DNA of 64,000 bases from Basidiobolus meristosporus CBS 931.73 (lineage: Eukaryota > Basidiobolomycota > Basidiobolomycetes > Basidiobolales > Basidiobolaceae): the NCBI GenBank assembly GCA_002104905.1, contig MCFE01000292.1, positions 38,105 to 102,104 of the forward strand. The letters run 5' to 3'. Position numbers and translations under genes: made by a program. Below, in pieces: positions 1,367 to 22,318 of this stretch. Within the stretch, counting starts at the first letter, position 1. Each line of letters begins with the position of its first letter. The notes beneath the pieces were generated by a model that saw only the letters and a program-made list of their open reading frames with translations, did not search any database and was not told the DNA's origin.

Positions 1367-2249
1367 ATGTCCTGGTGTTTATATCTTCATCTACTATTCA
1401 TAGTCACTCATACCGTAAATGGCATAGATCACTTTCAACTGGAGGAAGATTCATTCGTATACAGCACTACTAGTCTTCAAAGTCATAAAGTAACCACCGT
1501 GAAAAAGGGTAATACTGTGAAAGTACTTTGCCAGCTTGTGAGCAACGAAAATAACATCACCCAGTGAGTATCATGATTAATTAGTAATATGGAAATGTTG
1601 GCTAATTAATGACAGGATTTGGAGCGAAGTACAATATGGCAGTGCGCAAGGCTATATTCAATACTCCCATATGCATAAAGTGCAGGAATGGATTCCGGGC
1701 GCTCCAAATTGCGCTTGTAGAGACCCCGGGATCCCGACGCTTGGTGAAACGAAATTAACAAGTGACGAAGCTTTCAGAATTTTAACTAACGCAAAAATCA
1801 AGATCCCGAACATATGCATTTCAAATGGTGATAATTGTGTTTCATTACAAGGCTTACGAAACGAGACTACGCAAGGTTTAGTAAGTTTTGTTAAGTCTAC
1901 AAAATGCGGTATATCGCTCATCGGAGGAACTGAAGTATCAACCAGTGAGCCCAAGTACTCTTACAACGATGGATTTAAGGTGGACATGGAATTAAACCCG
2001 TGCCTTGAAAAATACCTCACTACCAATCTCACCTTTATTGGAAACCAACAGAATGGAGATCAAGATGCACTTTATGTTGCATGCAGTTCAAACCTATTTG
2101 TTTTAAGGAAAGATCGAATAAGTGCCGCCTTTTATATTGACGGAGGAAAGAGCCCAAAACCACTTACTGCAAATGAATCTGCAGGCAGAGCAATGACTAT
2201 TATGACTATCTACCTTTTGATTTTTGTACTAGTATATACATGGCTATGA
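1367..2249 (+). CDS. Secreted, probably GPI-anchored cysteine-containing protein (two exons)
   Basis: Exons 1367-1563 and 1616-2249 join in frame across a 52-bp intron to give 276 residues. The Met at 1367 is followed at once by a hydrophobic core (CLYLHLLFIV) and a small residue at TVNG, a good signal peptide. The upstream ATG at 1340 would add nine residues and sits too close to the TATA box. The mature part has eight or more cysteines and several N-glycosylation sequons (NIT, NET, NLT, NES). The C-terminus is a hydrophobic tail after small residues (NESAG), as in GPI-anchored or single-pass surface proteins. I do not recognise a family. The product is likely a cell-surface or secreted protein, lying between PDG-family genes. 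Confidence 0.75.
1564..1615 (+). other. Spliceosomal intron, 52 bp
   Basis: GTGAGT donor, GACAG acceptor, and a CTAAT branch-like motif about ten bases before the acceptor. Removing it joins CA to G (Gln codon) and continues straight into the long downstream frame without a stop. The size and signals are typical of fungal introns. Confidence 0.8.
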
Positions 2250-2784
2250 ATATACTGAACAAGGATAAAATCACCATGAAATGGGCAATACAGCATCAGA
2301 ACAGATGTTTCGGAACAATTTTTAACTAACATGGAGAATGGATTATTTGTTCATTTGCGTCCTGTTGATTGCATCATTAGGAGTTCCATTTTGTCATTAC
2401 ACTGATTGTTACTGGGATAAATCGAGAGATTTTCCATGTGCCATATACCTGGTCTTCGATGAAATGTCAGTTGTACAGCATAGCGCTTCAATAACTCTTA
2501 GTGTGATTTAAATTCCAGTAGCTAGCTTCGATGCTATACCTCCACGTTTCTTCGAGGGTTAACGGTGTGGTAGAAGATTTGTTTAAGCAAGCATTGGTAA
2601 TCAACTTTTCCATAAATAATCTACATAATACTCAAGTCTCCTTTATTTCTGATTTATTCAAAATGCATTTTAAAAGGCTATCAGTATTATATTGCATATC
2701 GCATTCTATCGTCTATATCCGAGCGATGATACTTTTTGTTCATGCGATGAGCATTCGTTATGGACAATAGTTTGGAGTTCGATT
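2250..2784. other. Intergenic; diverged flank of duplicated unit 1
   Basis: No gene. Bases 2628-2662 and 2695-2775 align imperfectly with 7497-7531 and 9833-9915, the two sides of the piggyBac insertion. This stretch therefore represents the paralogous site without the insertion; it contains a TTTTAAAA at about 2671-2678. Confidence 0.6.
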
Positions 2785-3008
2785 TTACACTACTTGGTTG
2801 TTGGACCAAGATGCATAACCGATATAGTTGAGCCATGTGTTACTAAGAATATCGCACACGAATCCTAAAGCTGAAATCTTTGTTCTTTGTATTTATGGTG
2901 GCGCTTAGTAATGGTCCAGTGATCAAGTGTTCGGACAAATTGGTTGAGTAAGATATGATAGCTTTATTAAAGTCAAAATCCGTGAAGTCATTTTCGCAAA
3001 AATCACCG

Positions 3009-3770
3009 TTACTTGCGAACATTGGTCGAGTTTACCCAGCGGGACGGGGTGACAGTTACCATCGAGTATATGCCTGGGCCTTGTTTAAGTTGAGTTACGT
3101 TTCCGAAACCAGCGAGGACATCCTGACCTCCGGCAGTCTTTCCTTTGATCTGGGAGGAATTCGATCCATCAAGCATGACACCAATTTTACAGCCAATGTA
3201 TGTTTTCATTAGGCTTCTCACTTGGCCAGGAGTTGCCGACATTATGCTGACAAGAATAATTTTGTTGTCTGTGCTTCTGTACCCAATTGCTGTCCTTGCT
3301 GAAGTAGAATTGGCTCCCATGGCGCCAACGCGACCCGCATGTTCACTCGCAGTGATATCATCTAGCCACTCTTTATCGGTGTACGCCTTATCCAGATGAA
3401 GACTCAAGCCGCCTACTGCCCATTGAATACTCTCCTTCTGGTAGCCATTAAGGTTGGATATCACATCAGTAGAGAGGAACAGATTCCCGCTGGAGCTTTT
3501 GGTGCATATCATGGTTCCCCTGCTGAAATCCCCGTAGTTATGAGCATCTCCGCCGTTTCTTACGGGCGCACCTCCAGCTTTGCAGACAATTGCCACCAGG
3601 TCCTTGGTAGGCGAGTCCCGATTGAAGTAGCCTCCATTGCAGCCATAGTAGGATGAAGCGTAGACATTAGTGTTGCCCACATCAGCGACGTCAATGGTGG
3701 GGACATCAGCAACAATTGCTGTGACACTGATGCCTTGATAGGTAAATTGGTTGACTCGAGCTTCAGACAT
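3009..3770 (-). CDS. Phosphodiester glycosidase (NAGPA-like, PF09992-type) protein, copy 1
   Basis: 253 residues, single exon. The family signatures are in order: GCNGGYFN (residues 43-50), AVGGLSLHLD (118-127), ARTAIGY (158-164) and VMLDGSNSS (198-206). These correspond to the family's NGGxF, IGGG, xRTAIG and LDGGGS blocks, so the catalytic core looks complete. The family cleaves phosphodiester links to sugars, as in the mammalian uncovering enzyme and many bacterial exopolysaccharide or cell-wall proteins. I infer a glycan-processing role; the substrate is unknown. No signal peptide is visible at the N-terminus. It lies upstream of nothing operon-like but is co-oriented with the DUF6973 gene at 5262-5759. 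It differs from copy 2 at residue 141 (Ala here, Val there). Confidence 0.8.
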   Translation of the reverse strand: MSEARVNQFTYQGISVTAIVADVPTIDVADVGNTNVYASSYYGCNGGYFNRDSPTKDLVAIVCKAGGAPVRNGGDAHNYGDFSRGTMICTKSSSGNLFLSTDVISNLNGYQKESIQWAVGGLSLHLDKAYTDKEWLDDITASEHAGRVGAMGANSTSARTAIGYRSTDNKIILVSIMSATPGQVRSLMKTYIGCKIGVMLDGSNSSQIKGKTAGGQDVLAGFGNVTQLKQGPGIYSMVTVTPSRWVNSTNVRK

Positions 3771-3810
3771 GGGGATTGCGCTTGTCTAGAACACAGTTGG
3801 CCATGGCAGT

Positions 3811-3817
3811 ATTTATA
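3811..3817 (-). promoter_or_regulatory. TATA box of PDG copy 1
   Basis: TATAAAT on the minus strand, 41 bp before the ATG at 3770; the same box is kept in copy 2. Confidence 0.6.
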
Positions 3818-3955
3818 GTATGAGCAGTGACCCATACGCTACATTCACTGTATACTGTGGGGTGTTCACAATGCGGATTACAGATCCAACACCCGTATTT
3901 GATGTAGCTACTTCCCAAGCACAAGAGGGCTTGTAGTTTGGTGTGCAAACTTGCA

Positions 3956-4721
3956 TTGATTCGCTTTCTCATAACCACAAGATATCAAGCGGGGTCAAAG
4001 CTGGGGATACGTTGTGTTACAGTGCCTCACAATACCTTCGGAATATGATGAATAATTCAAGCTATCTACTTTTGGGATGAACGTGGATTTTGAGTACACA
4101 TATCAAAACTTGGTGATGAATGATATACATAATGTGCAATTTAAGATACGATACTCAGCATTTGATACTGATTACAGCTATTTCCAGTTTTAACATCCAT
4201 ATCTCTTTTGCAACCAGATATGTCATGCAATGAAATGCATTCTATGAGGAGTTACTAGTTTCATTAAATATGTACTAGTTCAATCTAATACAAAGGACGA
4301 ATCGTGGAGCATCCTATCAAGATTAGTACAGGAATTTATTTAAAATTGCTCACCAACTCCTCCAAGCTCTTTTGGCCAACCCAAGATCGGATTAGCTGAT
4401 ACATCCATCTGTAATTATTGCTAGGTGGATCAGAAGTACCACAGATATAATAGTGATGGAAAACATCCTTTCTGGTATTGCTATTCCGATCCTGCTAAAC
4501 AGTGGTTTTGAGATATCACCGGATGAATCATAAGCACCAACTGTATCAAAATATTTTTACATGTAATGCATACTAGTTCTAATAGTACCTCACACAAGCC
4601 ATGCAATTGGGAAATCAAAACCATGGCTGAGTCACAGATATCACTGTAATGCTTAACATGCTGTTCCGTGCGCCATAATTCAAAACTTCCCAATCCCAAT
4701 TTTGGGAAGTGGTATGTTGTC
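3956..4721. other. Intergenic between PDG and DUF6973 genes; diverged paralogous flank
   Basis: No gene. Most of it (to about 4610) aligns with 11095-11725 with many substitutions and small indels, far more than the flanking cores. Landmarks shared by both are TTTTGAGATATCACCGGATG and TGCTATTCCGAT. Confidence 0.65.
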
Positions 4722-5261
4722 AGTGTCGAGGATAACCTCCGCATCAGGTTATCTTCACAATGTTGAACATTCAAGCCCATTTGCCTCAAACAGGCTTAGG
4801 AATCTGGTACTACCTGGCCAAGCCGTCTTACAGCCAAACCTGTAGAGCGTGATCGGGGTGGGACTTCTACCATCTACTGTCTGTATTCATTCACTCAAGA
4901 TCCAGGTTTGTATCATACAGTCTGGATTTGACACCCTTGTGACACATGGTTCGATTACTTGATGCTGCGATCGCTAGATCCTAGATGTTCGCGTATGATG
5001 AGTTCTGGTTGAAATCATGGCACTAATGTGCACATTATTCCCTTTTCATTGATGCACTAGACTGCACTCCCTGCAAAACAGGAAAGCCAATCCTGCGAAT
5101 ACGTACAGATGGCGTTCTCACAAATGCTGAGTTAAGCTTATTTCGAAAGCAGTCACCTGCCTACCAGCATTGCCATGCCATTGAGAAGAGTAGATATTTC
5201 AAGGTATGTTTATTTGGGTTACGTTTTCGAGCAAGTGTCGATTAGTCAATTGCACAACGAA

Positions 5262-5759
5262 TCATGGCTTAGGGGCCGTTTGAAGAAGCCCACTCTGTGT
5301 GCCAGCTATACAATCCGATTTGACTCTCATTCTAGCATTATCGGAGTTGGCTTCCTTGGCGGTGGCTGATTTGCCGATCTCTCTGCCTCTTGCGTTGTTG
5401 AAGAGATCCATGGATGAGGCTGCTGCACTATTTTGCCCAAACACTTCGTGAGCATCACCGACTTCCTTTGCCTGAGACTCACCAATACTAATGGTCATCA
5501 ACGCACTCCAATAGCAGTGACGGAACGCATCAGCTTTACCATTTACGTCGGAACCGACTGGGAATGTTTTATCGTTTATCAATGCCTGGGTGGTGTCCAA
5601 AGCCGTACTGGTGTCACGGGCAACCGAAATGCAGTCGAAGATGCCAACTTGGATAGCGCAGTTCCATCCTTCAGCCCACGATTTTTTATGCAACGGAGCC
5701 GCTGACGCCCAAGGAAGGGTGATTAGTGCAAGAGCGCCGATTAGAGTGAATGACTTCAT
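5262..5759 (-). CDS. Small secreted DUF6973-like protein, copy 1
   Basis: 165 residues with a clear signal peptide (about 1-20, ending PWASA). The mature domain carries DAFRHCYW (77-84), GDAHE (101-105) and MDLFNNARGREIG (117-129). This His/Asp/Asn-rich pattern is what I associate with the DUF6973 family, best known from bacterial secreted and polymorphic-toxin-type proteins. Cysteines at 34, 43, 82 and 150 could form disulfides. The conserved H81, H104/E105 and D118/N121-N122 look like active-site candidates, but the activity is not something I can state. A TATA box lies 65 bp upstream. Bacterial origin by transfer is plausible but inferred. Confidence 0.75.
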   Translation of the reverse strand: MKSFTLIGALALITLPWASAAPLHKKSWAEGWNCAIQVGIFDCISVARDTSTALDTTQALINDKTFPVGSDVNGKADAFRHCYWSALMTISIGESQAKEVGDAHEVFGQNSAAASSMDLFNNARGREIGKSATAKEANSDNARMRVKSDCIAGTQSGLLQTAPKP

Positions 5760-5823
5760 TGTGTTTACTGCCGGAAGTTAGAAGAAGGCTGTGTTAGTGA
5801 GGCTTTACTCCGTTCTTCGGTCC

Positions 5824-5830
5824 ATTTATA
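5824..5830 (-). promoter_or_regulatory. TATA box of DUF6973-like gene copy 1
   Basis: TATAAAT on the minus strand, about 65 bp before the ATG at 5759; conserved in copy 2. Confidence 0.6.
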
Positions 5831-6350
5831 GCTGATAGGCAGAAAAGAATTGTCAGACAGTATCAGGATCCTCTTTATTGGTGTTGGATCGCTTATGTTG
5901 GGCCAATATGTTCTGTGAAACGATGGCATTTGCAATGCGAACTCTGATACCCCAGAGAGGGACCCTTTGTTGACTGAGCTGCATGTCGGGTGGTAGAATT
6001 CGGAAAACATATCAGAGCTGCCCTGCAAGCTGGTGGGAAGGTCTTTCGAAGTAGTCAATTACTAGATACTGAGTCATTGCTAGTATCCATACCTTAGTTT
6101 ACCCCCTTGATGTATCACAATTATGGAGATTGGTGGCAACGACTGCGTTCATTGTAGAACATTCGAAGCCTTATTGTGATGTACCGAAAATAGATTGAAG
6201 ATTGTGGTCATTCATACTCTTTATAGTCAGTGTGCACTATTTGTGAAGCATCCAATGAAGGCTTTACTTGAACCGTCATCCGAGGGGGCTTTCGTGATCT
6301 GAGATTCGGCTCCAGCCATGACCTGTATTCTACTCAGCCCTTGTTTCTTA

Positions 6351-7556
6351 GCTTGAGAACTTTCAGGATATAGCAAGAAATACCGGAGATGCCAAGCCGT
6401 GTGTTGTGCACTATCCATAACTTGCATAGTGCTTAACCGAGGTTTCATGAGAGTACGGTATATTTGTGCCTATGATAACAATACCAATTATCTCCTATCA
6501 CTGTAGCGTACAAGCATCTGGTAGCATTGTAGTTAGTAATCTAAAAGGCCATAACTTGTTTACCTAAATAAGGGCTTTTGCAATTGTAGTATCTTCCCGA
6601 ATATAATATCAAGAAATGATTGTTAGCTGTGAAGATGAAATATTCACTGTATGTGTAGAGTTCTCCAGGATATTATTCACCCACTATGATGATAACAATA
6701 AGTCTGTTTCTTTGAAATTTTGTACTTGTTACTAAATCTACATTACATAGAATAAAGGCTACCAGTTCAGCAACTCGAACTATTTTTGTTTCTTAATTCA
6801 ATAGCAGTTTCTTATAAACATGTTTCCAGCAACGGTTGAATAGTTACAGAGCTCAAAAAATACCCCGGACTGTGTTATCAGAACTGTAGTGCTATTAGCA
6901 TTTGGTTTTTAAAACACTTTCAGTTTTGCTTTCCCCTATTAGCAATTACCGAGAAGGACCTATGAAAATACTGTCACGAAATTGGAAGTGTTGCTCATCA
7001 TTGCAATTAAAATTGCAACTTCCCTACCCAATATTGATTGGTATTTCTTTGATTTCTTTGATTCAAACTGTTGATATATCTCAAGTTTCAATTAAGCAAA
7101 TTGCTAAATTATTAGCTTTTGACCGGAGATTTAGTTTGTAATATATTAGCTAATACTCTGAATTAGTGAAATCCTGGAGCTTATCAAATTGATCTGACTT
7201 CGCAAAATGACTTCAAACCATGACGTTGTTTCCGGCAGATTTTTTTAAAACACTTGTATCGTTAGTCCACAAGCTCTCCTAAAAAAAGATATACAGCATC
7301 TAAGGACTCGGAGCATGTGTCGATCACCATTGGATGTGGTTTACCATAAAAGAATGATTTAAAGCTATCTCCTTGATAAATAAGCGTTGCAAAGTCACGC
7401 GGGAAAATTCTCACCCAATCTAAAAGCCATCATAGTTGAGCCGAATTCCTATCAAATATTGTATCACGCATTCGTGATTCTAATCAGCTTAATTAGCACA
7501 ATACTCAAGTCTTCTTTATTTCTGACATATTGCGAATAATTAACAAGTAGAGATTA
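6351..7556. other. Intergenic, AT-rich, no gene seen
   Basis: The first 200 bases align loosely with 15037-15220 (diverged flank of the DUF6973 unit). From about 7497 the sequence aligns with 2628 onward, marking the start of the second PDG unit. The short ORFs in between have no recognisable features. Confidence 0.55.
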
Positions 7557-7560
7557 GCCC

Positions 7561-7582
7561 AATCGGACCATTTGGTCCGATT
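7561..7582. repeat. Palindromic terminal motif of the piggyBac-like element
   Basis: Ten-base arms AATCGGACCA / TGGTCCGATT around a TT spacer. Partial copies occur at about 7747-7765 and 9785-9800. Confidence 0.6.
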
Positions 7583-7847
7583 GTATTTAAATTATTTTGA
7601 CCTCATAGCAAGGATATATGAAGTCTAAATGAAGTTTATGAAATTTCTCTGGTATACACTTTGTGCTGGTATTTTAATTTTTTCAAAATGGTTGCAAATA
7701 CTTTGTCTTATATTACCTTTACTGAAGCAACTTTTGGCAAATTTTAATCGGACCAAATGGTCTAACACTTCATTGATGAATAATGGGTATGGCTTTAAGC
7801 AATTATATTTCAAACATTTAATGGCCAATCCAACTAACTGCGAAGAA

Positions 7848-9639
7848 TTATTGAGCATTATTTGTTTTTTCATATACCACCTTCAAGTGCCTGGTATAGC
7901 AGTCCTTACACATTGGGTGGCCAGGGTTGCAACTGCATGAAAACTCAACCTTAGTGCTTGTAACATGAGCGGCAGTACAAGTTTTGCAAGCTAATCTACG
8001 GCGCTTTGAGCCATAACCTTTACTCATCGACAGGTAAGTGTGATTTTCATCACTTCTGAGTTGCCTCTGACTACCCAAGGGCCCCTTGATGTCTGAACCG
8101 GCCAAATTCTTACAATATTGCAAGAAATTGTATGCTAAAATATCCTTGAAAGAGAAATGAGATACGCCACACTTTTGATAAGAAAATGTACAATAAGTGC
8201 TATAGGCATTGGCGTCACAGATACCCAGGATGAAGCCGTAGAAACGCATCTCCCATCTTTCTGTACATATAACATCATGATAAGATGTCAAATTATCTTG
8301 AAGGTTATTAGCAGCATCAACCGAACCTACAAATATAGTAAATGGAGCACATGTTGTTTCTTCAAGACAGGATTCTACAATACAAGTTGCCAACACTGGC
8401 AACAATATTGGTGGTGGGCATACCACATGGCCAGTAGCAGCGTTTAGTCACTTGCATAATGGAATACAGACCAAGTTCAGCCAGCATCATTGTCATATTT
8501 GGGGATCCGAACCAAGAGTCAGCAATAACGGTACGGCCAGTACCAAACCAAGGCTTGACTAATCGCTTGACAGTGGAAGTCAACTTGGACATACCAGGAT
8601 CATTGTCATATTCCTTCTGTAACCAATCACTCACTGTATCTATTCTCAGGATACAAGCAGTGTGATGGTCTGCTAAAGTCTTGAACTCCTGTCCGATGGG
8701 ATGCGGCTTCCTTGGGACTTTCTTAACATTGGGCAAACCAGCTCCTAACCATTGATTCATTGATTCGTCAATGACTAAATACTTGCAGGGCTCTAAACAA
8801 GTTTTCATGTGCTCATTAAAGGCGTCAATAGTTGATCTAATTTGATAAAGAGCATCGATTTCTTGATGTTCTCGGGAAGGGATTTCAAGAACGTGCATTT
8901 TCAGAATCTCTTTAAATCTTCTATACGACATATATTCCGTAAAGTCAATGTTCATTAAGAAATGAGAAGAGCCTTGCTTCCAGTAAGCTTTTTTGTCGGA
9001 ATGATTGATTAATGCAATCCACATCATGTACTCGGCAAATGTAATGTCAGTCCATGGGCCAATGCTAGTTGCATAAGTATTAATCCTCCAAACGATAGTG
9101 CGAAAGTGATCTAAAGGAAGGAAGAACAAGAAATAATCCAGCGGTGAGGCATTTCTAGCATTTTTCATATTTAACCAAGCTTTCAAGGAGGTAAAACCAT
9201 CAGCTGGCCCACTTGTACGGGAATCAATATATACTTCCCCAGTTATCCAGGTGTCTGCTGCAGTAAGGTCAATTTCATCTTCCTCCTGCTCCTCTTCTTG
9301 GATTGCATCCTCCAATAGGTCTTTAGTAACAATACTCTCGGTAGTATTAGCAGTTGCAGGTTCAATGTTTCCCAAGGTATCATTACTGTTAGTCTTGATA
9401 TACTTTAAACAGTTTTGTGAAAGAGTCAATGTAATCCCCGGTACCAGATCCAAAATGACATCATATTCCAAATTGCCGTTGACTGTTGAGCGTGCAGTGG
9501 TAACTCCCTTGAAGCTCAAACCAGGTGTATTCCAGTCAAAACGCAGAGATAAAAGTCGTTTGACTTCCTTATGTTTGATAAATCGCTTGGATACTGATAC
9601 ACGCACATTAACATCAAGATGTTTACTGGCAGGAGGCAT
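7848..9639 (-). pseudogene. piggyBac-type transposase, frameshifted
   Basis: The first frame (ATG at 9639) gives 425 residues. It has an acidic stretch at 114-124, the DDE_Tnp_1_7 region with YLVIDES (catalytic D291), RKPHPIGQEFK (310-320) and VIADSWFGS (catalytic D374). The frame then runs to a stop at 8362. The rest of the protein lies in another frame (8426-7848): it holds a probable third Asp (ICDANAY) and ends in the usual cysteine-rich zinc-binding domain (CKTC, CSCNPGHPMCKDC). A single indel between 8362 and 8426 explains the break, so this copy cannot make a full-length enzyme. Confidence 0.8.
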
Positions 9640-10147
9640 GGTTTAAGTCTTAAGAAAAGATAAAACGAATATGACGAATTATCAAAACAACTCCAAAAAA
9701 TAAATATTCAGATTCTTGTTTATCAGAATATGATATGAAATAAACAAAGTAAGACACCCATCCAGAAAAAACAATTGTATTTAATTAGACCATTTGGTCC
9801 AATTTGGACCAGCCGAATAGCACTCCTACATCTCATGTCGCATTCTATCATTAGTTTCTCGGCGATAATATTTCCTAGTCATGCATTGCGCATTCTATAC
9901 GGACAATACTTCGGCGTCTGGTTTCACACTACTTGGTTGTTGGACCAAGATGCATAACCGATATAGTTGGGCCATGTGTTACTAAGAATATCGCACACGA
10001 ATCCTAAAGCTGAAATCTTTGTTCTTTGTATTTATGGTGGCGCTTAGTAATGGTCCAGTGATCAAGTGTTCCGACAAATGGGTTGAGTAAGATATGATAG
10101 CTTTATTAAAGTCAAAATCCGTGAAGTCATTTTCGCAAAAATCACCG

Positions 10148-10909
10148 TTACTTGCGAACATTGGTCGAGTTTACCCAGCGGGACGGGGTGACAGTTACCA
10201 TCGAGTATATGCCTGGGCCTTGTTTAAGTTGAGTTACGTTTCCGAAACCAGCGAGGACATCCTGACCTCCGGCAGTCTTTCCTTTGATCTGGGAGGAATT
10301 CGATCCATCAAGCATGACACCAATTTTACAGCCAATGTATGTTTTCATTAGGCTTCTCACTTGGCCAGGAGTTGCCGACATTATGCTGACAAGAATAATT
10401 TTGTTGTCTGTGCTTCTGTACCCAATTGCTGTCCTTGCTGAAGTAGAATTGGCTCCCATGGCGCCAACGCGACCCGCATGTTCACTCACAGTGATATCAT
10501 CTAGCCACTCTTTATCGGTGTACGCCTTATCCAGATGAAGACTCAAGCCGCCTACTGCCCATTGAATACTCTCCTTCTGGTAGCCATTAAGGTTGGATAT
10601 CACATCAGTAGAGAGGAACAGATTCCCGCTGGAGCTTTTGGTGCATATCATGGTTCCCCTGCTGAAATCCCCGTAGTTATGCGCATCTCCGCCGTTTCTT
10701 ACGGGCGCACCTCCAGCTTTGCAGACAATTGCCACCAGGTCCTTGGTAGGCGAGTCCCGATTGAAGTAGCCTCCATTGCAGCCATAGTAGGATGAAGCGT
10801 AGACATTAGTGTTGCCCACATCAGCGACGTCAATGGTGGGGACATCAGCAACAATTGCTGTGACACTGATGCCTTGATAGGTAAATTGGTTGACTCGAGC
10901 TTCAGACAT
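10148..10909 (-). CDS. Phosphodiester glycosidase (NAGPA-like) protein, copy 2
   Basis: 253 residues, differing from copy 1 only at residue 141 (Val for Ala). All family blocks are intact: GCNGGYFN, AVGGLSLHLD, ARTAIGY and VMLDGSNSS. The start was chosen as the first Met 41 bp after a TATA box. The piggyBac remnant lies about 340 bp beyond its 3' end. An intact frame in both copies with almost no difference implies recent homogenisation or a recent duplication. Cytosolic or unconventionally exported, since no signal peptide is seen. Confidence 0.8.
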   Translation of the reverse strand: MSEARVNQFTYQGISVTAIVADVPTIDVADVGNTNVYASSYYGCNGGYFNRDSPTKDLVAIVCKAGGAPVRNGGDAHNYGDFSRGTMICTKSSSGNLFLSTDVISNLNGYQKESIQWAVGGLSLHLDKAYTDKEWLDDITVSEHAGRVGAMGANSTSARTAIGYRSTDNKIILVSIMSATPGQVRSLMKTYIGCKIGVMLDGSNSSQIKGKTAGGQDVLAGFGNVTQLKQGPGIYSMVTVTPSRWVNSTNVRK

Positions 10910-10949
10910 GGGGATTGCGCTTGTCTAGAACACAGTTGGCCATGGCAGT

Positions 10950-10956
10950 ATTTATA
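10950..10956 (-). promoter_or_regulatory. TATA box of PDG copy 2
   Basis: TATAAAT on the minus strand, same position relative to the gene as in copy 1. Confidence 0.6.
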
Positions 10957-11094
10957 GTATGAGCAGTGACCCATACGCTACATTCACTGTATACTGTGGG
11001 GTGTTCACAATGCGGATTACAGATCCAACACCCGTATTTGATGTAGCTACTTCCCAAGCACAAGAGGGCTTGTAGTTTGGTGTGCGAACTTGCA

Positions 11095-11916
11095 TTGATT
11101 TGATTTCGGAACTAGGAATGGGTCGTGTTACAGTGCCTTACAATATATTCAGAATATGATCAATAAATTAAGATACTACTTTTGGGAGGAGTGTGGATTG
11201 AGTACGTATGTTACAACTTAATTGTTGGCACACATAACGTAATTCAAGATGGAATACTCGGTATTTGATGCGGCTCACAGCTATATCCAGTTTTAACATT
11301 GATGTCTATCTTTGAAATAAGATAAGTTAAATGCTTTCTGCGTGCAGCTACTAGTTTCATGAAAAATGTACTAGAGCAATCTAATACACGGGAAGAATCG
11401 TGTGGTGTCATTTCAAGATTGCGCAGTGGTTAGTTCGTAATTATTCATTAACTCACAATACGGTGCTACCCCAGGCTCACTTTGCCAAACCAAAATCATA
11501 ATAGTTGATATATCATCTGTAACTAAGGCTAGGTAGATCAGTGGTGTCACAGATATCATAGTGGTGGAAGACAACTTTTCTTGTCTTGCTATTCCGATTT
11601 TGCTGGACAGTAGTTTTGAGATATCACCGGATGAATCGAGATCTGTCGCTGTTTATAAATATCTCTACATGTAGAACACTCTAGGTCTAGTGAAATCTCA
11701 TACAGGCTTTGCAATTGGCTACCTCTGGACCGAAACTGTTATGAAAGCCCCTATCACCACCCAACACTAGGGCGGTCGATTTGTGATTTTTTCTATCACG
11801 CTAGTTCTTTCTTAAACATGAATGAGGAAAGAAACTATTTATTTGTTCCTTCAAGCGCTAGTGTTTGTTCGCGGAATCAAGAATTATCCACGATAGATTC
11901 ACCGAACTAAACTTGT
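11095..11916. other. Intergenic; diverged counterpart of 3956-4610
   Basis: No gene. Paralogous to the stretch downstream of PDG copy 1 up to about 11725; the last 190 bases have no counterpart that I see. Confidence 0.5.
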
Positions 11917-12405
11917 TCAAGAGATGGTTTGCAGCATACCTTTCCGGGCTGCATCAAGACAGCCATCCATAGCAAGAGCATTCGCGCTTTTTGAGGTTTT
12001 GTAAAGATTCCCGATCTCTCGACCTTGAGCATTGTTGAATAGGTCCATTTTTGACTCAGCCGACAGGTTATTGCCATTGTCCTCATGACTGTCTGCCACT
12101 TTCTGAGCTTGATCTGCGCCGAATCGAATGGTCATCAGGGCATTCCAGTAGCAGTGACGGAAAGCATCCCCTTTGCCATAGTGGAGAGATGCCGAGGAGA
12201 AGTATCCCTTTGGGGCGAGAGCCTGAGCTGTCTCTTAAGCCGTGTCTGCATCTTCCTTAGCATCCAAGCAGTCAAGAGGTCCAATAAGGAATACACAAGC
12301 CACCTTCTCTGATAAGGATGCATTATTTTGTCTCTTGAGCGGCACAGCAAGCGAGATAGCAGGAAGAAGCAGAGTTGCAACACCGAAGATCTGAGCAAGT
12401 TTCAT
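11917..12405 (-). pseudogene. Third DUF6973-like paralogue, interrupted by one stop codon
   Basis: From the ATG at 12405 the frame begins with a good signal peptide (about 20 residues, ending AISLA) and runs 56 codons to a TAA at 12237-12235. The same frame then continues to a natural stop at 11917, with GDAFRHCYWNALMT, ADSHE and MDLFNNAQGREIG. All family motifs are present and no frameshift is needed. It is much more diverged from copies 1 and 2 than they are from each other. It lies between the PDG and DUF6973 genes of unit 2 with no counterpart in unit 1. Unless the stop is read through or spliced out, the gene is dead, and recently so. Confidence 0.75.
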
Positions 12406-12452
12406 TGTAACGGGGTGGTAATTGAATTATGGCACAAACAGACTTGAAACCC

Positions 12453-12463
12453 TTTTATAAATA
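12453..12463 (-). promoter_or_regulatory. TATA box of the DUF6973-like pseudogene
   Basis: TATTTATAAAA on the minus strand about 50 bp before the ATG at 12405; the core promoter survives although the gene is broken. Confidence 0.5.
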
Positions 12464-13407
12464 CCGTTGGCGTAAGGATGCGTGCTACATTTACCATCAA
12501 CCTGAATGCAGAGTACTGCCAAAGAAGTTGTGATCCGTGGAAGTATTCTCATAATCAGTTCCATGTTGTTTCAACTCAATCTACCCTGCCTTTGCGAAAC
12601 TTTGCGTAATCTGGAATACAACAATAACCATGAGAAATGCTAAGCCATGTACAACACTATCATGGGCGGATAGCATACCTAACAGGTCTTTCTGGTGGCT
12701 GTTCCAAGCGATTACTGCCGTTCCAAGTTATATATATTGTGGTGTACACCAGACCCAAATACGCATTTTGGCTACTATGTACAATTGTAAATTCTAGAAA
12801 TGCCAAGTCGAGTGATACTCTATCTGGTTGCACTCTCTAACGAAATAATTCGAGCACTGGTTGATGGCATTGTGTAGGGTATTTTAGGCTACGTTACAGA
12901 GTTCTCTTATTGAGTTGGAGGTTTGAGTGCATAAATTCAGATTGGGGAATGCAGTAAACAAGTATTCATAGCTGCAAAGTCTCACACATTGCTTGCTTTT
13001 TTCCAAGGATCAAGATTAGAAATCGTAGATGTCGGGTATTTCGATCACGACTCTGATACTAGAGATCTGTTGCTATCTGGGATCCATCCATCATGGTGAG
13101 AATCTCAACCGCAGTTCACAGTGTATACGAAATAGCAACCTCTATATCAAGATACCAGGTATCTCGATTACTGGCTGTTCATCTGTGTGGTGTATAACCT
13201 AAAACTAGTGCACCAGGCACAGGTTATGCAGACTAATCCAACAGGAAGTTGTCCAAGATTGTCCACAATCACCGTTAATAGTTGCAATCGGGCCATTCTT
13301 CACAAGCACCCCCGAGCGGCAAAAACTACCGTTGTGAATAACAAGCAATTTCGTGCGCCTTAACGCCAATTGTTCTCAATCTTAGTTTTAGGACGGGGTA
13401 TGCTGTT
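12464..13407. other. Intergenic, no gene seen
   Basis: No convincing frame or repeat. The final 60 bases resemble 4660-4720 before the DUF6973 core of unit 1. Confidence 0.5.
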
Positions 13408-13947
13408 AGTGTCGAGGATAACCTCCGCATCAGGTTATTTTCACAATGTTGAACATTCAAGCCCATTTGCCTCAAACAGGCTTAGGAATCTGGTACTACC
13501 TGGCCAAGCCGTCTTACAGCCAAACCTGTAGAGCGTGATCGGGGTGGGACTTCTACCATCTACTGTCTGTATTCATTCACTCAAGATCCAGGTTTGTATC
13601 ATACAGTCTGGATTTGACACCCTTGTGACACATGATTCGATTACTTGATGCTGCGATCGCTAGATCCTAGATGTTCGCGTATGATGAGTTCTGGTTGAAA
13701 TCATGGCACTAATGTGCACATTATTCCCTTTTCATTGATGCACTAGACTGCACTCCCTACAAAACAGGAAAGCCAATCCTGCGAATACGTACAGATGGCG
13801 TTCTCACAAATGCTGAGTTAAGCTTATTTCGAAAGCAGTCACCTGCCTACCAGCATTGCCATGCCATTGAGAAGAGTAGATATTTCAAGGTATGTTTATT
13901 TGGGTTACGTTTTCGAGCAAGTGTCGATTAGTCAATTGCACAACGAA

Positions 13948-14445
13948 TCATGGCTTAGGGGCCGTTTGAAGAAGCCCACTCTGTGTGCCAGCTATACAAT
14001 CCGATTTGACTCTCATTCTAGCATTATCGGAGTTGGCTTCCTTGGTGGTGGCTGATTTGCCGATCTCTCTGCCTCTTGCGTTGTTGAAGAGATCCATGGA
14101 TGAGGCTGCTGCACTATTTTGCCCAAACACTTCGTGAGCATCACCGACTTCCTTTGCCTGAGACTCACCAATACTAATGGTCATCAACGCACTCCAATAG
14201 CAGTGACGGAACGCATCAGCTTTACCATTTACGTCGGAACCGACTGGGAATGTTTTATCGTTTATCAATGCCTGGGTGGTGTCCAAAGCCGTACTGGTGT
14301 CACGGGCAACCGAAATGCAGTCGAAGATGCCAACTTGGACAGCGCAGTTCCATCCTTCAGCCCACGATTTTTTATGCAACGGAGCCGCTGACGCCCAAGG
14401 AAGGGTGATTAGTGCAAGAGCGCCGATTAGAGTGAATGACTTCAT
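13948..14445 (-). CDS. Small secreted DUF6973-like protein, copy 2
   Basis: 165 residues. It differs from copy 1 at two positions: Val for Ile at about residue 36, and Thr for Ala at 134. The signal peptide (1-20), DAFRHCYW, GDAHE and MDLFNNARGREIG are all intact. The start is the first Met, about 65 bp after a TATA box that is also duplicated. It is co-oriented with, and about 3 kb upstream in transcriptional terms from, PDG copy 2. Expected to be exported; function unknown beyond family membership. Confidence 0.75.
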   Translation of the reverse strand: MKSFTLIGALALITLPWASAAPLHKKSWAEGWNCAVQVGIFDCISVARDTSTALDTTQALINDKTFPVGSDVNGKADAFRHCYWSALMTISIGESQAKEVGDAHEVFGQNSAAASSMDLFNNARGREIGKSATTKEANSDNARMRVKSDCIAGTQSGLLQTAPKP

Positions 14446-14509
14446 TGTGTTTACTGCCGGAAGTTAGAAGAAGGCTGTGTTAGTGAGGCTTTACTCCGTT
14501 CTTCGGTCC

Positions 14510-14516
14510 ATTTATA
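14510..14516 (-). promoter_or_regulatory. TATA box of DUF6973-like gene copy 2
   Basis: TATAAAT on the minus strand, same spacing as in copy 1. Confidence 0.6.
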
Positions 14517-15036
14517 GCTGATAGGCAGAAAAGAATTGTCAGACAGTATCAGGATCCTCTTTATTGGTGTTGGATCGCTTATGTTGGGCCAATATGTTCT
14601 GTGAAACGATGGCATTTGCAATGCGAACTCTGATACCCCAGAGAGGGACCCTTTGTTGACTGAGCTGCATGTCGGGTGGCAGAATTCGGAAAACATATCA
14701 GAGCTGCTCTGCGAGCTGGTGGGAAGGTCTTTCGAAGTAGTCAATTACTAGATACTGAGTCATTGCTAGTATCCATACCTTAGTTTACCCCCTTGATGTA
14801 TCACAATTATGGAGATTGGTGGCAACGACTGCGTTCATTGTAGAACATTCGAAGCCTTATTGTGATGTACCGAAAATAGATTGAAGATTGTGGTCATTCA
14901 TACTCTTTATAGTCAGTGTGCACTATTTGTGAAGCATCCAATGAAGGCTTTACTTGAACCGTCATCCGAGGGGACTTTCGTGATCTGAGATTCGGCTCCA
15001 GCCATGACCTGTATTCTACTCAACCCTTGTTTCTTA

Positions 15037-15642
15037 TCTTGAGAACTTCAGGATATATCAAGCAAGACGAGTGAGTTCAAGCTGTGTGCTACGCCTTTAT
15101 GGGTAAATATTGTACATTCATGGCTTACGTAGTGGTTGACCTAAGTTTTATGAGTGTGGCATATTTTTGCCTGTGACCACGATACCAATTCTACCATTGT
15201 AGCGTGTTCACATCAGGATTCGGAAGTAGAATTCGTCGCATCACGTCCTAGCTATCCTGATGGCATCGCTTGGCTTGAGCCTGTTCCATCAGCAAATGGG
15301 CTCCCCTGAGAATATCTCCGGGAGATCCAATGCGAAGATCCGCCCTATTTCTAACTTGGCCAGCATATCTTCGAGTGGCGGAGGACATCGATCCCTCTTA
15401 TTTTCAGTATGCCGCTAAATTTCACTTCTGCTCAGAATAGCACTGTCACAATGCATGCTAATTTCGTATCGCAAAATATTCAACATTAGTTGTACAACTT
15501 CTATTTAAGTCTTCACAGTAACCTAGCAGTGGGGCTATTAATAACAACGCTATCTTTCCAGATTTCTCAGATGTAGACTAATATTTGGGGTCATTTTTGC
15601 AAGCTTGAATAACACTTGACCAAGTTATTACTCAACAATTGG
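15037..15642. other. Intergenic, no gene seen
   Basis: The first part is the diverged counterpart of 6351-6540. A locally GC-richer stretch at 15225-15400 has no convincing frame. Confidence 0.5.
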
Positions 15643-16930: not shown

Positions 16931-18730
16931 TTTCTTAATTCTTTAGGGCTCATGTTCTAAGTACTTGAGGTCTTGAAAAGATATTCCAAGTAAAGCCCAC
17001 AAAGGGACTATACAAGAAGTCCAAAGTTCTCTTTGCTCTGATCTAATCAAATAAGCTAACAGAGTACTCATATGTAATTTGCAATCTCTTGTTTGATCAT
17101 ATATTGAAAGTTAAGGTAATGCATATATAGTTATGGCAAAAAAACCCTCTACTGTATCATCAAGATGGTGGAAATGTATTTATTATGTTTTCTCCTTGCT
17201 AAATGCTATACTGGTACATCCATTTTTGTCTGCTTGTCCCTTACCTGCTCTCTCCCAGCAATCTAAAGTTTGTTTGATGCTTGTTTTGGGCTCTCTACCC
17301 TGCTTATAACAGGCTCCTGAGAAAGCCAGGGTTTTTATCACTGCCAGGTCCTTCACTGCTACCTTTACTGTATGCTTCTTGTATTGAACTAAATTCTTTC
17401 TTAATAAATGCTGCATTGATTCTTTTGAAGCTGCCTGCTTGTTCCTTACCAGCAGTCTTCTGGCTATCTAATGTTTTTTGCCACTTGTTTGGAGCTTTCA
17501 GCCCTGCTTGTGACAAGCTCTTGAGGAAGCTACTAGTTTTTAGCCATGGCACCTTTGTTCTGCCTTTGATAGTCTCTGCTATTCTTGAGATACTCTCTTA
17601 CTATATCAATGCTGGCCCAAAATCTGTTTGTTTGCTTGAATCCAGGACAATGATTATGGAGCTGATCATTCATATACTACTAGGCCATGAGTTCCTGATG
17701 ATCTTATGGTATGCAAGTCTTAAGGTGATGCCATGCTAGACTTCTTACAGCCTCTTGAATATTGGCCTACTCTTCATTATTGCACTCAACTGCTTCATAG
17801 ATCTTCAGTGTCTTTTGATTTTTAGGCTTGGGTATAAAAATCATATTTTCTCTCTCCCATGCTGTGATAGGTCTTTCTGTGGGCTTTATCTTTGGGCACT
17901 GTTGTTGTGCTTCAAATACTCTATGGTGTTCCTCTACTGTTACATTAGGAAATGGCTCAACTCTTGGCTGTGACATTGAGCTGCTTGAGTTCCTTCTTTG
18001 CAGCTTGGATATTGCATTCTCTACCTGAAATATTGATTGCTCTATGCATATTTCCTGCTCATCCTGTCTCTGGACTATTTCCTGCCTTCTCTGGGCCATT
18101 GCATTTAATGTAGTAGCCACTGCACCTAGTTGCCTCATAGGTGCTTTGGTAGGAGCTGACAACATACACACTAATACTGGCAGTAGTAATACTATGATGG
18201 TCATTTGCCAGTTTGTACCAGAGGTACTGTGTTTGCTATGTTCTCATCTGCCTGAGCATTATGGTCAGCTTGCAGCTTGGCAGAGATCCTCAATTGCCTA
18301 CATGACAGAGCCTGAGGAGTCCACATTATTACCTTCAGGGGTACACTCTCAATATGGCCTTTTTTGAGTGTAGCCATGCTTGTTGTGCTCAATGTGAAGG
18401 CAAGCTGTTGTCCAACTATTCTTCTGCTGCTGTCAATAGTGCAGTTTGGTTGGGAACCAGACAACTTTGACTTATTTTTTGGTAGCATATATGTGTAAGT
18501 GAGTCAAATCAAGTAGGAAGTAGAGCTGCATATATTGTGTATGTAGTACCACAGCTTTATATATAATGCTTACTATGGAGAAACATCATTGAATTGGACA
18601 CTCATGTAGGTGCAATGTCTCTAGTAACAGGCTCTCTTATATTCACAAGAGTAGTGACAAAAAAGTGATACAATAGCATTGATTGTTGAAAGTCAAGCTG
18701 TTTGCTCCATTAACAAGACTACTTTGATTC

Positions 18731-19078
18731 TGTTGTAGGATTTTTGGAGATATTGGAAGTGATTGGAAGGACAAGTAGATTATGTGGTTTTCACTTAATG
18801 ATTTATTGAATGTAATAGTAGTGTTTCTACTATTGAATGGTCTTGGCATTACAAACAAGTAGAATAGGCTAAGAAAGGTCCCTAGAAGATGTGTGCAAAG
18901 TTTGGGGCTGTTTGGACAACTTTGAGAATTTTCATGTTCTATGTACCTGGTATTTTAGTGAAAATATTCTAAGTAAATCCCAACAGGGAATTTGGTCAGT
19001 ATTCTCTATGATTTTAAGGTAATGAGCTAAGTGACTAAGCTAGGTGAATATTTAGGTGGAATTTCAAGTTTTACAACA
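18731..19078 (-). mobile_element. Solo LTR, family F
   Basis: 348 bp, starting TGTTG and ending ACAACA, flanked by a perfect 5-bp duplication GATTC (18726-18730 and 19079-19083). It is homologous to the LTRs at 40820-41168 and 43783-44131. By comparison with those, its sense strand is minus. It splits the upstream part of family C copy C1. Confidence 0.8.
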
Positions 19079-19083
19079 GATTC

Positions 19084-19218
19084 AATGCCATAAGAGAAGG
19101 GAAAAACAAATATGTGGCTATTGTTACAAACCTCTCAGTACTGAAGCATGCAGACAGCATCAGAACTATTACAAGGATCACAGCCAGTGTTTATCACACA
19201 AGTCAAACATTGGCATTC
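19084..19218 (+). pseudogene. Zinc-finger-like coding relic, opposite to family C
   Basis: The plus-strand frame holds CGYCYKPLSTEACRQHQNYY followed by KDHSQC, a Cys/His spacing that could form a zinc finger. The equivalent site in copy C3 (minus strand, about 47145-47060) encodes CGYCSKPLSHEAYRQCRKYY, so both copies keep much of the pattern on the strand opposite to the coiled-coil gene. This suggests a second, divergently transcribed gene in the ancestral element. Both copies are short and broken. Confidence 0.35.
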
Positions 19219-19826
19219 ATCAGTTACTACTGTACTAAAAATATCCTATCTGCCACTAAATACTTCTATAATGGCACCTAGCCTTTCATGATCACATGGT
19301 ATGCTTGACCTTTCATGATCCGGCCAAATCATATTAGTGAAGAAATCCCAGTTCCTTCTAGAAAGCTCTACTACATTCTAGCAACTTCTGGAAAGCTCCA
19401 AGTCAACTTTACACAATGGAATATTCTATGAAAGCTTCCTTTGAGAATTTATGTAACTCAGTACTATATGTGGTAATTGCATGTCACATGACCTAGTCAT
19501 ATGATCAGCTGACCCTTGGCATATCCCAATGTAATGTTCTAGTCTGTTCTTTAGTATATTTCTATCTTGGCACACTTACTGTGCCTCACCCCAGAACCCC
19601 ATCAGTATTAGCCAATATCTCTTGGCATCCATATTGACACAAAAGACTTGTTCCATTGGATAGTGCCACAAAGTGCCAGCCTATATATGGTGCCAGATTG
19701 ATCTGGCACTCTATGGCACCATCTGGCAGTATAATTTCTACCATGATGCCAGTGGTATGGTACAGTTACTGGTAATTTTACTCAATCTTACTTATGTTGC
19801 TCAGAATAGTGCTTTCCTTGCTTTAT

Positions 19827-20711
19827 TTACTCTTCATAATGCTCCAGACACATTTCTCTCAGTGGATGTCTTCTTGTATGAACATACTGTGCATTAATAA
19901 GTATCTTAACTATTTTACCTATTCTGCTGTTTTCTCCTATATATGACTTTCCTCTGTATTAACCTGCCAATATGCTGAATCTCTTCAGATATCCAAATGT
20001 GTGCTCTACCCTCACTCTGAAATGGTTAAATATCTCATTGTAGAGCTTCTGCTTCTTGCTAAGCACACCATTCCTTGGCTTCCTATAAGCTGTAATATAT
20101 CCTAATCTCTGACAATCCTCTCCTATATAGTCTAAGTCTGCCATACATTTCTCCCCTCTACTGAATTCAGGATGATTCTCTACCCAGAGTGCTTTGTCAT
20201 GCCTACTTCCAGCAAATGGCCCACAAAACCAGATGATGTTACCCTCAATGTCAGACAGTGCTTGAAACTTCACACAGTGTGCCTTGTACTTGCCAGAATA
20301 AAAGTGCCTCTGCCCTCTAGAAGGTCTGTTAATCCTCACTGGGAAGGTATCCAAAATACTCCTGACATGGAACCTGTTGCTGAACACTCTGGGATATGGA
20401 AGTCTATTGGAGCTTCTGAACCTAGTACTCCAAGCTTGCTCTAAGTCAATCATACCCTCTGCAAGGTGGTTCTCCATTGCTGTCAGCTGGGAATGAAAGC
20501 TTCTAGGACTTTTGTTGCCATGGATGGTGGGATAAAACCTTGTAGGGCATTAGTTCTTGTAATAGCAGAGAAGCTTAACAAGGGATCTCCTTGAGTAGAT
20601 TGGGGTTGATGGTCCACAGTACTTGGAATAGATCTCCTCTAGTGTGTCAAAAGGAAATCCAGTGGTAGTGATGGGATTGATGAGAAAAGACCATTCAGAT
20701 GAGTAAGTCAT
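19827..20711 (-). pseudogene. Harbinger-type DDE transposase (DDE_Tnp_4-like), copy 1
   Basis: A single 295-codon frame from the ATG at 20711 to a TAA at 19827, interrupted by two in-frame stops: one about 54 codons in (TAA where copies A and B have a Tyr codon) and one near the C-terminus after FSILAG. Catalytic candidates are the Asp in SILDTF, the Asp in GSRHDKALW and the Glu in RVRVEHTFGYLKRF. INRPSRGQRHFYSGKYK is typical of the DDE_Tnp_4 core. At the position of the TGA shared by copies A and B, this copy has a Cys codon (EDCQR). Confidence 0.75.
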
Positions 20712-21070
20712 ATTAAAATTGGTGGATGATTGTATAGAGGCGGTTTGAATTGATTTGGTGTGATCTGCGTTATTTATCTGACTTTTAATACATTATGGTT
20801 AAATCTCCATCAATTGCCGTGTATCCCATCATTATGTTGCAAAAATCATCCGCAAACAATGCCTTGGTACTTTTATTGATGCTTTAATCCTAGGTCTATA
20901 ATCAAATAGGAAATCTGCAATTGATGAGATCTGATCTGTGTCAATGTGATCCAAGATGCATCATGCATAACATATGGAAAATTCAACAATCACATTAGTT
21001 TTCATATATATTTCACATAAGACCAGGTTGATGCCAATATACTGCTGTATAAGTAACCAAATCCATTGCT

Positions 21071-22318
21071 ATGGTCCCCATACCAAGCCTCAACTCATCT
21101 TTAGTACAACCCAGACAAAACCCATCCCCCAGCTCACAAGCGCAGTCAGGACCAAAAAATTTGATGTTGGATCCATTCAAGTTCTTGCCAAATGATTTTA
21201 GTATGGCCCAAGTGTCTATGATGAGCCTTCATACAGATATTTGGGCACTACTGATTAATCTAGCAGAACTAGATACCTCAGAGAGTCAACAAAGATGGAA
21301 GAATTTGAGTAGAAAGCTGTTGCATGAGCTCTACATCAAGATGCCAGCCAATGTATGTAAGAAGATATATAACAAGACAAGTATTGAAATCAAGAATGAG
21401 CTGAGAGTGAGGGGATTTGACAAAGAAGCTGCACGGGAACAATTTTGTGCGCAATTTGCACAGTACAGGCTGGACGCGTCTGTTTGTGCCTCAACTTTGG
21501 GAACCAAAGAGATTTTGAATGAGTTTTTGCCTCAACTGACTAATGTACTATGTGATATATTAGTAGAGCTAAGTGGCTTCTGAGAGCAATATACACAGGA
21601 CTCATCCAGGCAACAGCTCCAAAGTATCAGACAGAGGGTAAGTGAATACCTTGAGGAATCAGATGGTGAGCTTCAGGAGGAAGATTACAGACCGCAAGCA
21701 ACATTGTCCAGATTGCGCCAGCACGCCTTGCTGGATTCCCTACCATTGCTTGCAACCACAGCGTGCCGGCACACGTCAGTCCAGACCATGCCAACACCCT
21801 TTACCAGAACGCCCCGCATCAAGTCAACGTGCATTGAGTCAACGCACGTGCTTCAGAGCAAAACTACAAGAACTTGCCAAACTGCTCACTTAGACACAAG
21901 TCCATTGGAGCGGACCAAGTTGCGTCAACATGCGGCATCACATCAGACTCAGCCAAGGGCCATCTCAACACGTCAAGGTGCACCTGTGCATGCCATTTTG
22001 CCTGACTATCAGCAAGTTACTTCTGGTGAACTGACTGATGATGACCAACATGAAGTGCCTCAACCACCGGAGCCCTTGGCAAGTAAAAGAATGCATCAGC
22101 ACATGGCACTACAGGCCGGTTCAGTTGGTTCAGTTGGAGCAATTCAGCGCGGCCAAGCTGCAGCATTGCACTCATCAACTAGGAGGCAAAATACTGACTA
22201 CAAATACACAAGTAGCCAAGATGATAGTCAGCTAGGAAGTAGTATAGGTGTGCAAAGTGAGTCACTACCAAATGCTTCAGTAGTAATCCCTGTGAGAAAA
22301 AAACCCAGGAGAAGATGA
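21071..22318 (+). pseudogene. Harbinger accessory protein gene, copy 1 (one in-frame TGA)
   Basis: A 416-codon frame divergent from the transposase, interrupted by one TGA at 21581-21583. The N-terminal third is proline/serine rich, followed by a helical region (about residues 50-165) that includes QQRWKNLSRKLLHELY and RGFDKEAAREQFCAQFAQY. After the TGA come a charged segment (SEYLEESDGELQEED) and a Gln/Thr-rich tail ending in basic RKKPRRR. In Harbinger transposons the second ORF usually encodes a DNA-binding partner of the transposase. I cannot confirm a MYB-like fold here, so that role is by position only. Confidence 0.6.

Follow-up and report, generated by a model that had tools for sequence, protein, structure and literature searches.

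Duplicated genes in the window

The gut fungus Basidiobolus meristosporus (strain CBS 931.73) carries a cluster of repeated genes on a contig of 102 kb. The window, that is, the whole stretch of DNA analysed here, is the right-hand 64 kb of this contig, and a window position is the contig position minus 38104. Window positions are used below unless the contig is named. All copies are known from one assembly of one strain. PDG and DUF6973 are each represented by copies B and C, with the following features.

1581..2246, plus strand: SEC family gene, member of the repeated module
2679..2786, no strand: diverged left flank of PDG B, 67.6% identical to 9818-9925 and 84-85% to copy A
2787..3961 (contig 40891-42065), minus strand: near-identical core of PDG copy B, from segmentation, 99.49% identical to 9926-11100
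3009..3770, minus strand: PDG coding sequence B, 253 aa, NAGPA / phosphodiester glycosidase domain (Pfam PF09992, E 8.4e-07)
4001..4610, no strand: diverged right flank of PDG B, 75.7% identical to 11112-11718
4602..4721, no strand: diverged left flank of DUF6973 B, 66.7%
4722..6350, minus strand: near-identical core of DUF6973 copy B, 1,629 bp, 99.39% identical to 13408-15036
5262..5759, minus strand: DUF6973 coding sequence B, 165 aa (Pfam PF22322, E 2.8e-23)
6351..6509, no strand: diverged right flank of DUF6973 B, 76.2%
8362..9639, minus strand: transposase-domain ORF (DDE_Tnp_1_7; PF13843, E 1.1e-32) between the two units
9818..9925, no strand: diverged left flank of PDG C, from segmentation and a separate flank search
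9926..11100, minus strand: near-identical core of PDG copy C, from segmentation; at the left edge it putatively received B-like sequence, from site patterns
10148..10909, minus strand: PDG coding sequence C, 253 aa, 1 residue different from B, from translation
11112..11718, no strand: diverged right flank of PDG C, from segmentation and a separate flank search
11923..12390, minus strand: third DUF6973 copy, old and not homogenised, protein 46% identical, one in-frame stop
13283..13407, no strand: diverged left flank of DUF6973 C, from segmentation and a separate flank search
13408..15036, minus strand: near-identical core of DUF6973 copy C, from segmentation
13948..14445, minus strand: DUF6973 coding sequence C, 165 aa, differing at 2 residues, from translation
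15037..15205, no strand: diverged right flank of DUF6973 C, from segmentation and a separate flank search

A third PDG copy (A) lies upstream of the window at contig 35542-36625. The frames of A, B, and C are all open, and their proteins are identical or 1 residue apart; coding sequence B has the same score as copy A and is 100% identical to it. Comparison of PDG with solved structures gives two ribosomal matches only, both at chance level. The predicted structure of SEC is poor (mean pLDDT 56.8). At gathering scores, Rfam has no match in the window. The cluster also contains gene fragments interrupted by in-frame stops.

Near-identical cores inside diverged flanks

The core limits were obtained by three-state segmentation with parameters chosen by the analyst. 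The PDG cores of B and C are 1,175 bp long and differ by 6 mismatches without gaps, while the DUF6973 cores show 10 mismatches, also without gaps. A preliminary description had placed the PDG core of about 1170 bp at 2785-3955 and 9924-11094, a few bases from the measured limits, and the DUF6973 core exactly where it is found here. Its figure of about 99.5% identity also agrees with the measured values. As it had proposed, the flanks are alignable and diverged; they are homologous, collinear, and 67-76% identical. For PDG, the left flank is 108 bp long, and the right flank (610 bp, 9 gap openings) begins beyond 39 unalignable bp in copy B. For DUF6973, they are 120 bp on the left and 159 bp on the right. 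Each flank searched alone recovers its partner, with E values of 2e-11 and 2e-103 for the left and right flanks of PDG, and 3e-8 and 5e-15 for those of DUF6973.

The identity is not restricted to coding sequence. In the noncoding part of the PDG core, 4 of 413 sites differ, against 184 of 711 in the flanks (Fisher 4e-35). The corresponding numbers for DUF6973 are 8 of 1131 and 76 of 271 (Fisher 5e-49). Difference rates for PDG and DUF6973 are thus 0.97% and 0.71% in the noncoding core and 0.26% and 0.40% in the coding sequence, against 26-28% in the flanks.

Mismatches are strongly clustered along the alignments. In all six copy pairs tested, out of nine in all, none of 2,000 column shuffles matched the observed longest run or variance-to-mean ratio; the latter is 9.9-26.1, against a shuffle maximum of 3.5. 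Seven control pairs of transposons, chosen by the analyst, have ratios of 0.57-4.06. For three of the seven, only 2, 0, and 0 of 2,000 shuffles reached the observed values, indicating that some unevenness is normal here.

Other units of the cluster

The two pairs noticed in the preliminary description are both real, but the phenomenon is larger. Near-identical cores are found in five units over about 40 kb: PDG, DUF6973, MEM (a membrane protein), AAA-ATPase, and X, an intergenic segment. The MEM, AAA-ATPase, and X units are upstream of the window on the same contig. Diverged homologous flanks are present on both sides in PDG B-C, DUF6973 B-C, and AAA 2-3, on one side only in MEM, AAA 1-3, PDG A-B, and PDG A-C, and on neither side in AAA 1-2 and X.

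AAA copies 2 and 3 have a common tract at contig 21135-22284, with diverged homologous sequence at both edges. The common tract of copies 1 and 2 (contig 21696-22494, 799 bp) has unrelated immediate flanks on both sides. An AAA copy without about 1.6 kb still carries a common tract. The tract of X is 863 bp long, and its immediate flanks are unrelated on both sides. At both places X sits between a PDG gene and an AAA gene, indicating that X too is in a collinear position. The tract ends vary by pair also in PDG, where the tract of B-C starts at contig 40891 and that of A-B at 41012.

In MEM, the tract has its start within the coding sequence, with diverged homologous sequence at its left edge, and it is interrupted by a 31-bp island in which 8 sites are mismatched. 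The DUF6973 tract, for its part, includes 1,131 bp that are not part of the main frame. Contrary to the first suggestion, the tracts are therefore not limited to the gene segments. The predicted structure of MEM is moderate (pLDDT 68.4, pTM 0.47). A protein search with the MEM profile scored the 7,994 best-sharing candidates and found three proteins, all of them from Basidiobolus.

Probable direction of copying

The nearest relative was determined at the left edge of PDG only, where the three copies can be aligned without gaps over 171 positions. On the left side of the edge, sites at which A and B agree against C, B and C against A, and A and C against B number 23, 5, and 9. On the right side these numbers are 1, 11, and 0. 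The switch between the first two classes is significant (Fisher 1.9e-5). Across the edge the identity of B and C rises from 73/108 to 62/63, whereas that of B and A is steady (91/108 and 52/63). Because C turns from distant to B-like and the distance between B and A is unchanged, C appears to have been overwritten. The sequence patterns thus point to copying from B-like sequence onto C at this edge. The PDG core has 8 variable sites among A, B, and C and shows no clear direction; these sites are too few, and the direction rests on the edge. The site patterns of AAA and MEM against the C334 and C160 outgroups give no clear direction.

Origin of the near-identical cores

The best explanation of these facts, with a probability of roughly 0.87, is that ectopic gene conversion recently acted within an array of duplicated modules that is itself old. 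The preliminary description had proposed old duplication plus recent local conversion, and the identity profile, the noncoding identity, and the switch at the PDG edge support it. One recent duplication alone is refuted by the non-uniform identity profile along the units.

Alternatively, template switching or break-induced replication could have made copies of gene pieces that were then attached at new sites, with no resident paralogue converted. Unrelated immediate flanks on both sides of AAA 1-2 and X, the unrelated right flank of PDG A, and the gene fragments with in-frame stops would suit such insertion. However, it is unlikely for the cluster as a whole, with homologous flanks on both sides of PDG B-C and DUF6973, diverged homologous sequence at both edges of AAA 2-3 and at the left edge of MEM, and the collinear position of X. 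For X and AAA 1-2 themselves, a copied-in piece could be as good an explanation as conversion. It is still less probable that, through misplaced reads, assembly or polishing homogenised what is truly a single copy or a less similar pair. Such an artefact might be suspected in a single assembly, and Basidiobolus ranarum is described as at least diploid in PMC3281927. Against this, each copy has flanks and substitutions of its own, PDG is near-identical at three places, and the change in site pattern falls on a precise edge; the strain is also reported as PacBio-sequenced (PMC7466969).

Most cores hold genes, and the close agreement of the PDG proteins might suggest that functional cores are conserved while flanks drift. 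As the cause of the identity, selective constraint is refuted by the noncoding core, which is nearly as identical as the coding sequence, and it has hardly any probability left. The shortened AAA copy with its common tract also argues against it, as do the PDG, AAA, and MEM paralogues on C160 and C334, which are only 76-80% identical in DNA. Equally implausible is a mobile element or exchangeable cassette carrying the cores. The transposase-domain gene between the two pairs could be taken as a hint of it, as could a 5-bp direct repeat at the ends of X1, which is equal to the random 95th percentile. Scores for terminal repeats and target-site repeats of all 12 core copies are not above the 95th percentile of 300 random placements, and none of the edge 9-mers is common to three or more families. 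Near-identical copies of PDG, DUF6973, X, AAA, and MEM were not found elsewhere in the genome, the counts being lower bounds. Neither the tract ends nor the number of copies found supports a mobile cassette, and it is rejected.

Proposed mechanism and timing of conversion

Under gene conversion, the starting point would be duplicated modules that had long been arrayed in cis on a single contig, namely PDG, DUF6973, AAA ATPase, MEM, and SEC (a secreted-type protein). Recently, tracts of about 0.6-1.6 kb of one paralogue would have been copied over a second one at a distance of 5-14 kb, with both loci retained. A direct exchange between AAA copies 1 and 3 would raise the distance to 19 kb. The simplest route might be a break repaired by homology with the neighbouring paralogue as the template. 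The tracts may end where the similarity of the paralogues dropped too low or where the repair patch stopped, which would leave near-identical stretches in surroundings that retain the old divergence. No telomere-type repeat array is seen on the contig with four short patterns, except for one 10-base match, which lends no support to a chromosome-end setting.

Seven of ten tracts are homogeneous, with 39 differences in 7,236 bp. Conversion possibly took place in one episode. In that case, a few patchy strand-exchange events could have converted every stretch still able to pair, and four gene families and the intergenic segment would have been converted at once. Two registers could be considered, one about 12.3 kb apart (MEM and AAA 2-3) and the other about 7-8.7 kb (PDG/DUF6973 B-C).

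Comparison with known systems

Tandem duplicates such as the fetal globin genes are the classic case of interlocus conversion, with a near-identical, sharp-ended segment in older, diverged duplicated flanks. The Basidiobolus tracts are likewise near-identical and sharp-ended inside diverged duplicated flanks, but they belong to five units of one multi-family cluster. Variant surface gene systems driven by conversion are a further parallel. One of them, Babesia ves1 (PMC4066756), resembles the present cluster in that its families are clustered, include fragments, and recombine in cis. In Basidiobolus, however, the visible result is homogenised copies, known from sequence alone.

Recursive ectopic gene conversion between proximal paralogues is reported for Aspergillus flavus and A. 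oryzae (PMC12844118). There, as here, nested paralogue groups of a fungus are repeatedly overwritten in cis, with deletions and gene losses. The pairs listed there are 47-174 kb apart, whereas the Basidiobolus pairs are 5-19 kb apart. Orthologues from a second species anchor the inference in Aspergillus, while the present case comes from one species and other gene families. Meiosis had not been documented in Basidiobolus as of 2012, according to PMC3281927. Judged by titles and the beginnings of abstracts, no paper on gene conversion or concerted evolution in Basidiobolus was found in the library searched.

The process is known already, and the cluster of B. meristosporus adds a clear new case. 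As a natural record of interlocus conversion it is clean, and it comes from a fungal genus that diverged early. As the tracts make old duplicates look recent, within-genome gene trees of these families are misleading. As most tracts are similar in age, it can be asked, and tested, whether conversion occurred in a burst or as a steady process. It can be speculated, with considerable doubt, that the cluster was overwritten in one episode and that such overwriting may be a recurrent way for Basidiobolus to keep lineage-specific linked modules coordinated.

Near-Identical Cores in Diverged Flanks

The genome assembly of Basidiobolus meristosporus CBS 931.73 comprises 89.0 Mb in 1,311 contigs, and the window is C527:38105–102104. 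PMC7466969 gives the origin of the strain as gecko dung and the sequencing as PacBio.

The first 54 kb of contig C527 is a cluster of five repeated families: PDG (NAGPA domain, PF09992), DUF6973 (PF22322), AAA ATPase (PF00004, E 1e-17), MEM (membrane proteins), and SEC (secreted-type proteins). The two gene pairs of the preliminary description, PDG and DUF6973, are present as described, but the extent is larger, and the cluster reaches beyond the window with further near-identical tracts. Tracts were delimited by segmenting pairwise alignments into three states (unrelated, diverged, and identical), with parameters set by the analyst.

Near-identical tracts from segmentation (contig coordinates unless marked)
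PDG B–C core, window 2787–3961 / 9926–11100: 6 mismatches in 1,175, no gaps
DUF6973 core, window 4722–6350 / 13408–15036: 10 mismatches in 1,629, no gaps
PDG A–B, 35542–36625 / 41012–42095: 9 mismatches in 1,084
PDG A–C: 6 mismatches in 1,054
MEM, first part, 12567–13372 / 24808–25613: 2 mismatches in 806
MEM, island between the two parts: 8 mismatches in 31 bp
MEM, second part, 13404–14217 / 25645–26458: 6 mismatches in 814
AAA copies 1–2: 5 mismatches in 799
AAA copies 1–3: 8 mismatches in 589
AAA copies 2–3: 8 mismatches in 1,150
X (intergenic segment), 18569–19431 / 32456–33318: 2 mismatches in 863

When the two units are aligned in 100-bp steps, identity is not uniform: core interiors are 98–100% identical, versus ~69–81% in the aligned right flank of PDG. 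Each of four flanks, searched alone, retrieves its partner (E 2e-11, 2e-103, 3e-8, and 5e-15), which indicates true homology rather than forced alignment. The segmentation and these separate searches bear out the earlier picture of near-identical cores inside diverged homologous flanks. The right flank of PDG A is unrelated to the other copies in the segmentation.

In all six copy pairs tested, of nine in total, none of 2,000 column shuffles reached the observed mismatch clustering. The variance-to-mean ratio (VMR) of mismatches is 9.9–26.1 in cluster pairs versus 0.57 to 4.06 in seven transposon control pairs, which were chosen by the analyst from a self-comparison and of which three exceed nearly all or all shuffles.

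G+C content is 0.46 in the PDG core and 0.35–0.36 in its flanks (window 2679–4610), and 0.46 and 0.42, respectively, for DUF6973 (window 4602–6509). Coding content may explain the higher values of the cores.

Evidence for Gene Conversion

Noncoding differences, counted outside the main reading frame and thus possibly including unrecognised exons, number 4/413 in the PDG core and 8/1131 in the DUF6973 core, versus 184/711 and 76/271 in the flanks. The noncoding core is nearly as identical as the coding core, which favors conversion. So do the staggered tract edges: AAA pairs share different, overlapping stretches, and the PDG A–B tract starts 121 bp inside the B–C tract. The MEM tract starts within coding sequence, which also favors conversion; the differences between the MEM proteins lie close to the N-terminus and within the island, plus one more residue.

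The three copies align gap-free at the left boundary of the PDG tract. Sites grouping AB|C, BC|A, and AC|B number 23, 5, and 9 to the left and 1, 11, and 0 to the right (Fisher 1.9e-5). Across this edge B–C identity rises from 73/108 to 62/63, while B–A is unchanged (91/108 and 52/63). Because only C switched affinity, C appears to be the recipient of B-like sequence here.

In all 12 core copies, terminal inverted repeats and target-site duplications score no higher than the 95th percentile of 300 random placements; one copy of X (X1) just reaches that value, through a direct repeat of 5 bp. No 9-mer is common to the core edges of three or more families. Such core ends likewise favor conversion. 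X and AAA 1–2 may be copied-in pieces rather than conversions.

AAA copy 3 lacks ~1.6 kb of gene found in copy 2 (contig 33319–33399). The gap falls between X and the AAA tail, both of them near-identical stretches, and ~70 diverged bp adjoin it.

Age and Register of the Tracts

Seven of the ten tracts were pooled for age comparison. PDG A–B (0.83%), PDG A–C (0.57%), and AAA 1–3 (1.36%, the highest) were left out, since each of their copies already enters through another tract. The pool contains 39 differences in 7,236 bp (0.54%) and is homogeneous (chi-square 4.19, 6 df, p 0.65), in a test of low power and with a segmentation that seeks stretches near 99.4% and is thereby biased towards homogeneity.

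Contig 1–56,000 contains 46 exact direct matches of at least 30 bp. All but one fall within the tracts; the exception is 33 bp long, at 18245 / 30685, and is part of a 116-bp stretch of 91.4% identity. In the same listing, the remaining aligned pieces of at least 100 bp outside tracts are at most 84% identical; parts of one SEC remnant reach 87–88% in the segmentation. Tracts of intermediate age are therefore few.

The copy spacings of MEM (12,241 bp) and AAA 2–3 (12,265 bp) are in nearly the same register; that of X is 13,887, and B–C spacings are 7,139 for PDG and 8,686 for DUF6973. The pattern fits few events rather than many, without proving it.

Other Features of the Window

For DUF6973 (window 5262–5759 and 13948–14445), a profile of 12 sequences finds a chain of solved structure, 9uu0_A, a T6SS effector of Bacteroides fragilis (E 3e-11); the match covers the conserved region AFRH...HE...DL-NN--GR. 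By eye, the fungal proteins start with a hydrophobic, signal-like stretch. The literature search found no paper naming DUF6973.

DDE transposon-like repeats lie at window 19876–21928 (with a PF13359 domain), 38767–40819, and 44617–46669, at 90–95% identity in direct and inverted orientation. The 38767/44617 pair diverged unevenly (VMR 4.06).

Relatives and Known Cases

Among the published cases found, the closest comes from Aspergillus, where nested paralogues undergo ectopic conversion (PMC12844118). Searches for Basidiobolus with "gene conversion" or "concerted evolution" returned nothing on the subject, judged by title and the start of the abstract. The process is already known, and the C527 instance is new relative to the literature found.

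PDG protein searches of the genome give 12 matching stretches (ten on C527 and one each on contigs C160 and C334), and DUF6973 gives three, all on C527. DNA searches, which are lower bounds on copy number, match PDG, AAA, and MEM on C160 and C334 at 76–80%, and AAA on contig C1035 at 68%. At E 0.05, Pfam returns nothing for MEM (three members scanned) or SEC (two). A MEM profile, scored against the 7,994 best-sharing candidates, finds three matches, Basidiobolus proteins only. The AAA ATPase is presumably BCS1-like. The SEC sequence (contig 23387–24368; window 1581–2246) is suggestive of a signal peptide, of an SH3b-like stretch interrupted by an intron, and of a motif resembling one in M15 peptidases.

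PDG, MEM, and SEC frames are present on both C160 and C334. A 614-aa AAA frame is found on C334, and the C160 AAA match is weak (64%). PDG, MEM, and SEC thus co-occur on three contigs (C527:1–54000, C160, and C334), two of which, C527 and C334, also carry a long AAA frame. This joint occurrence suggests a linked functional module.
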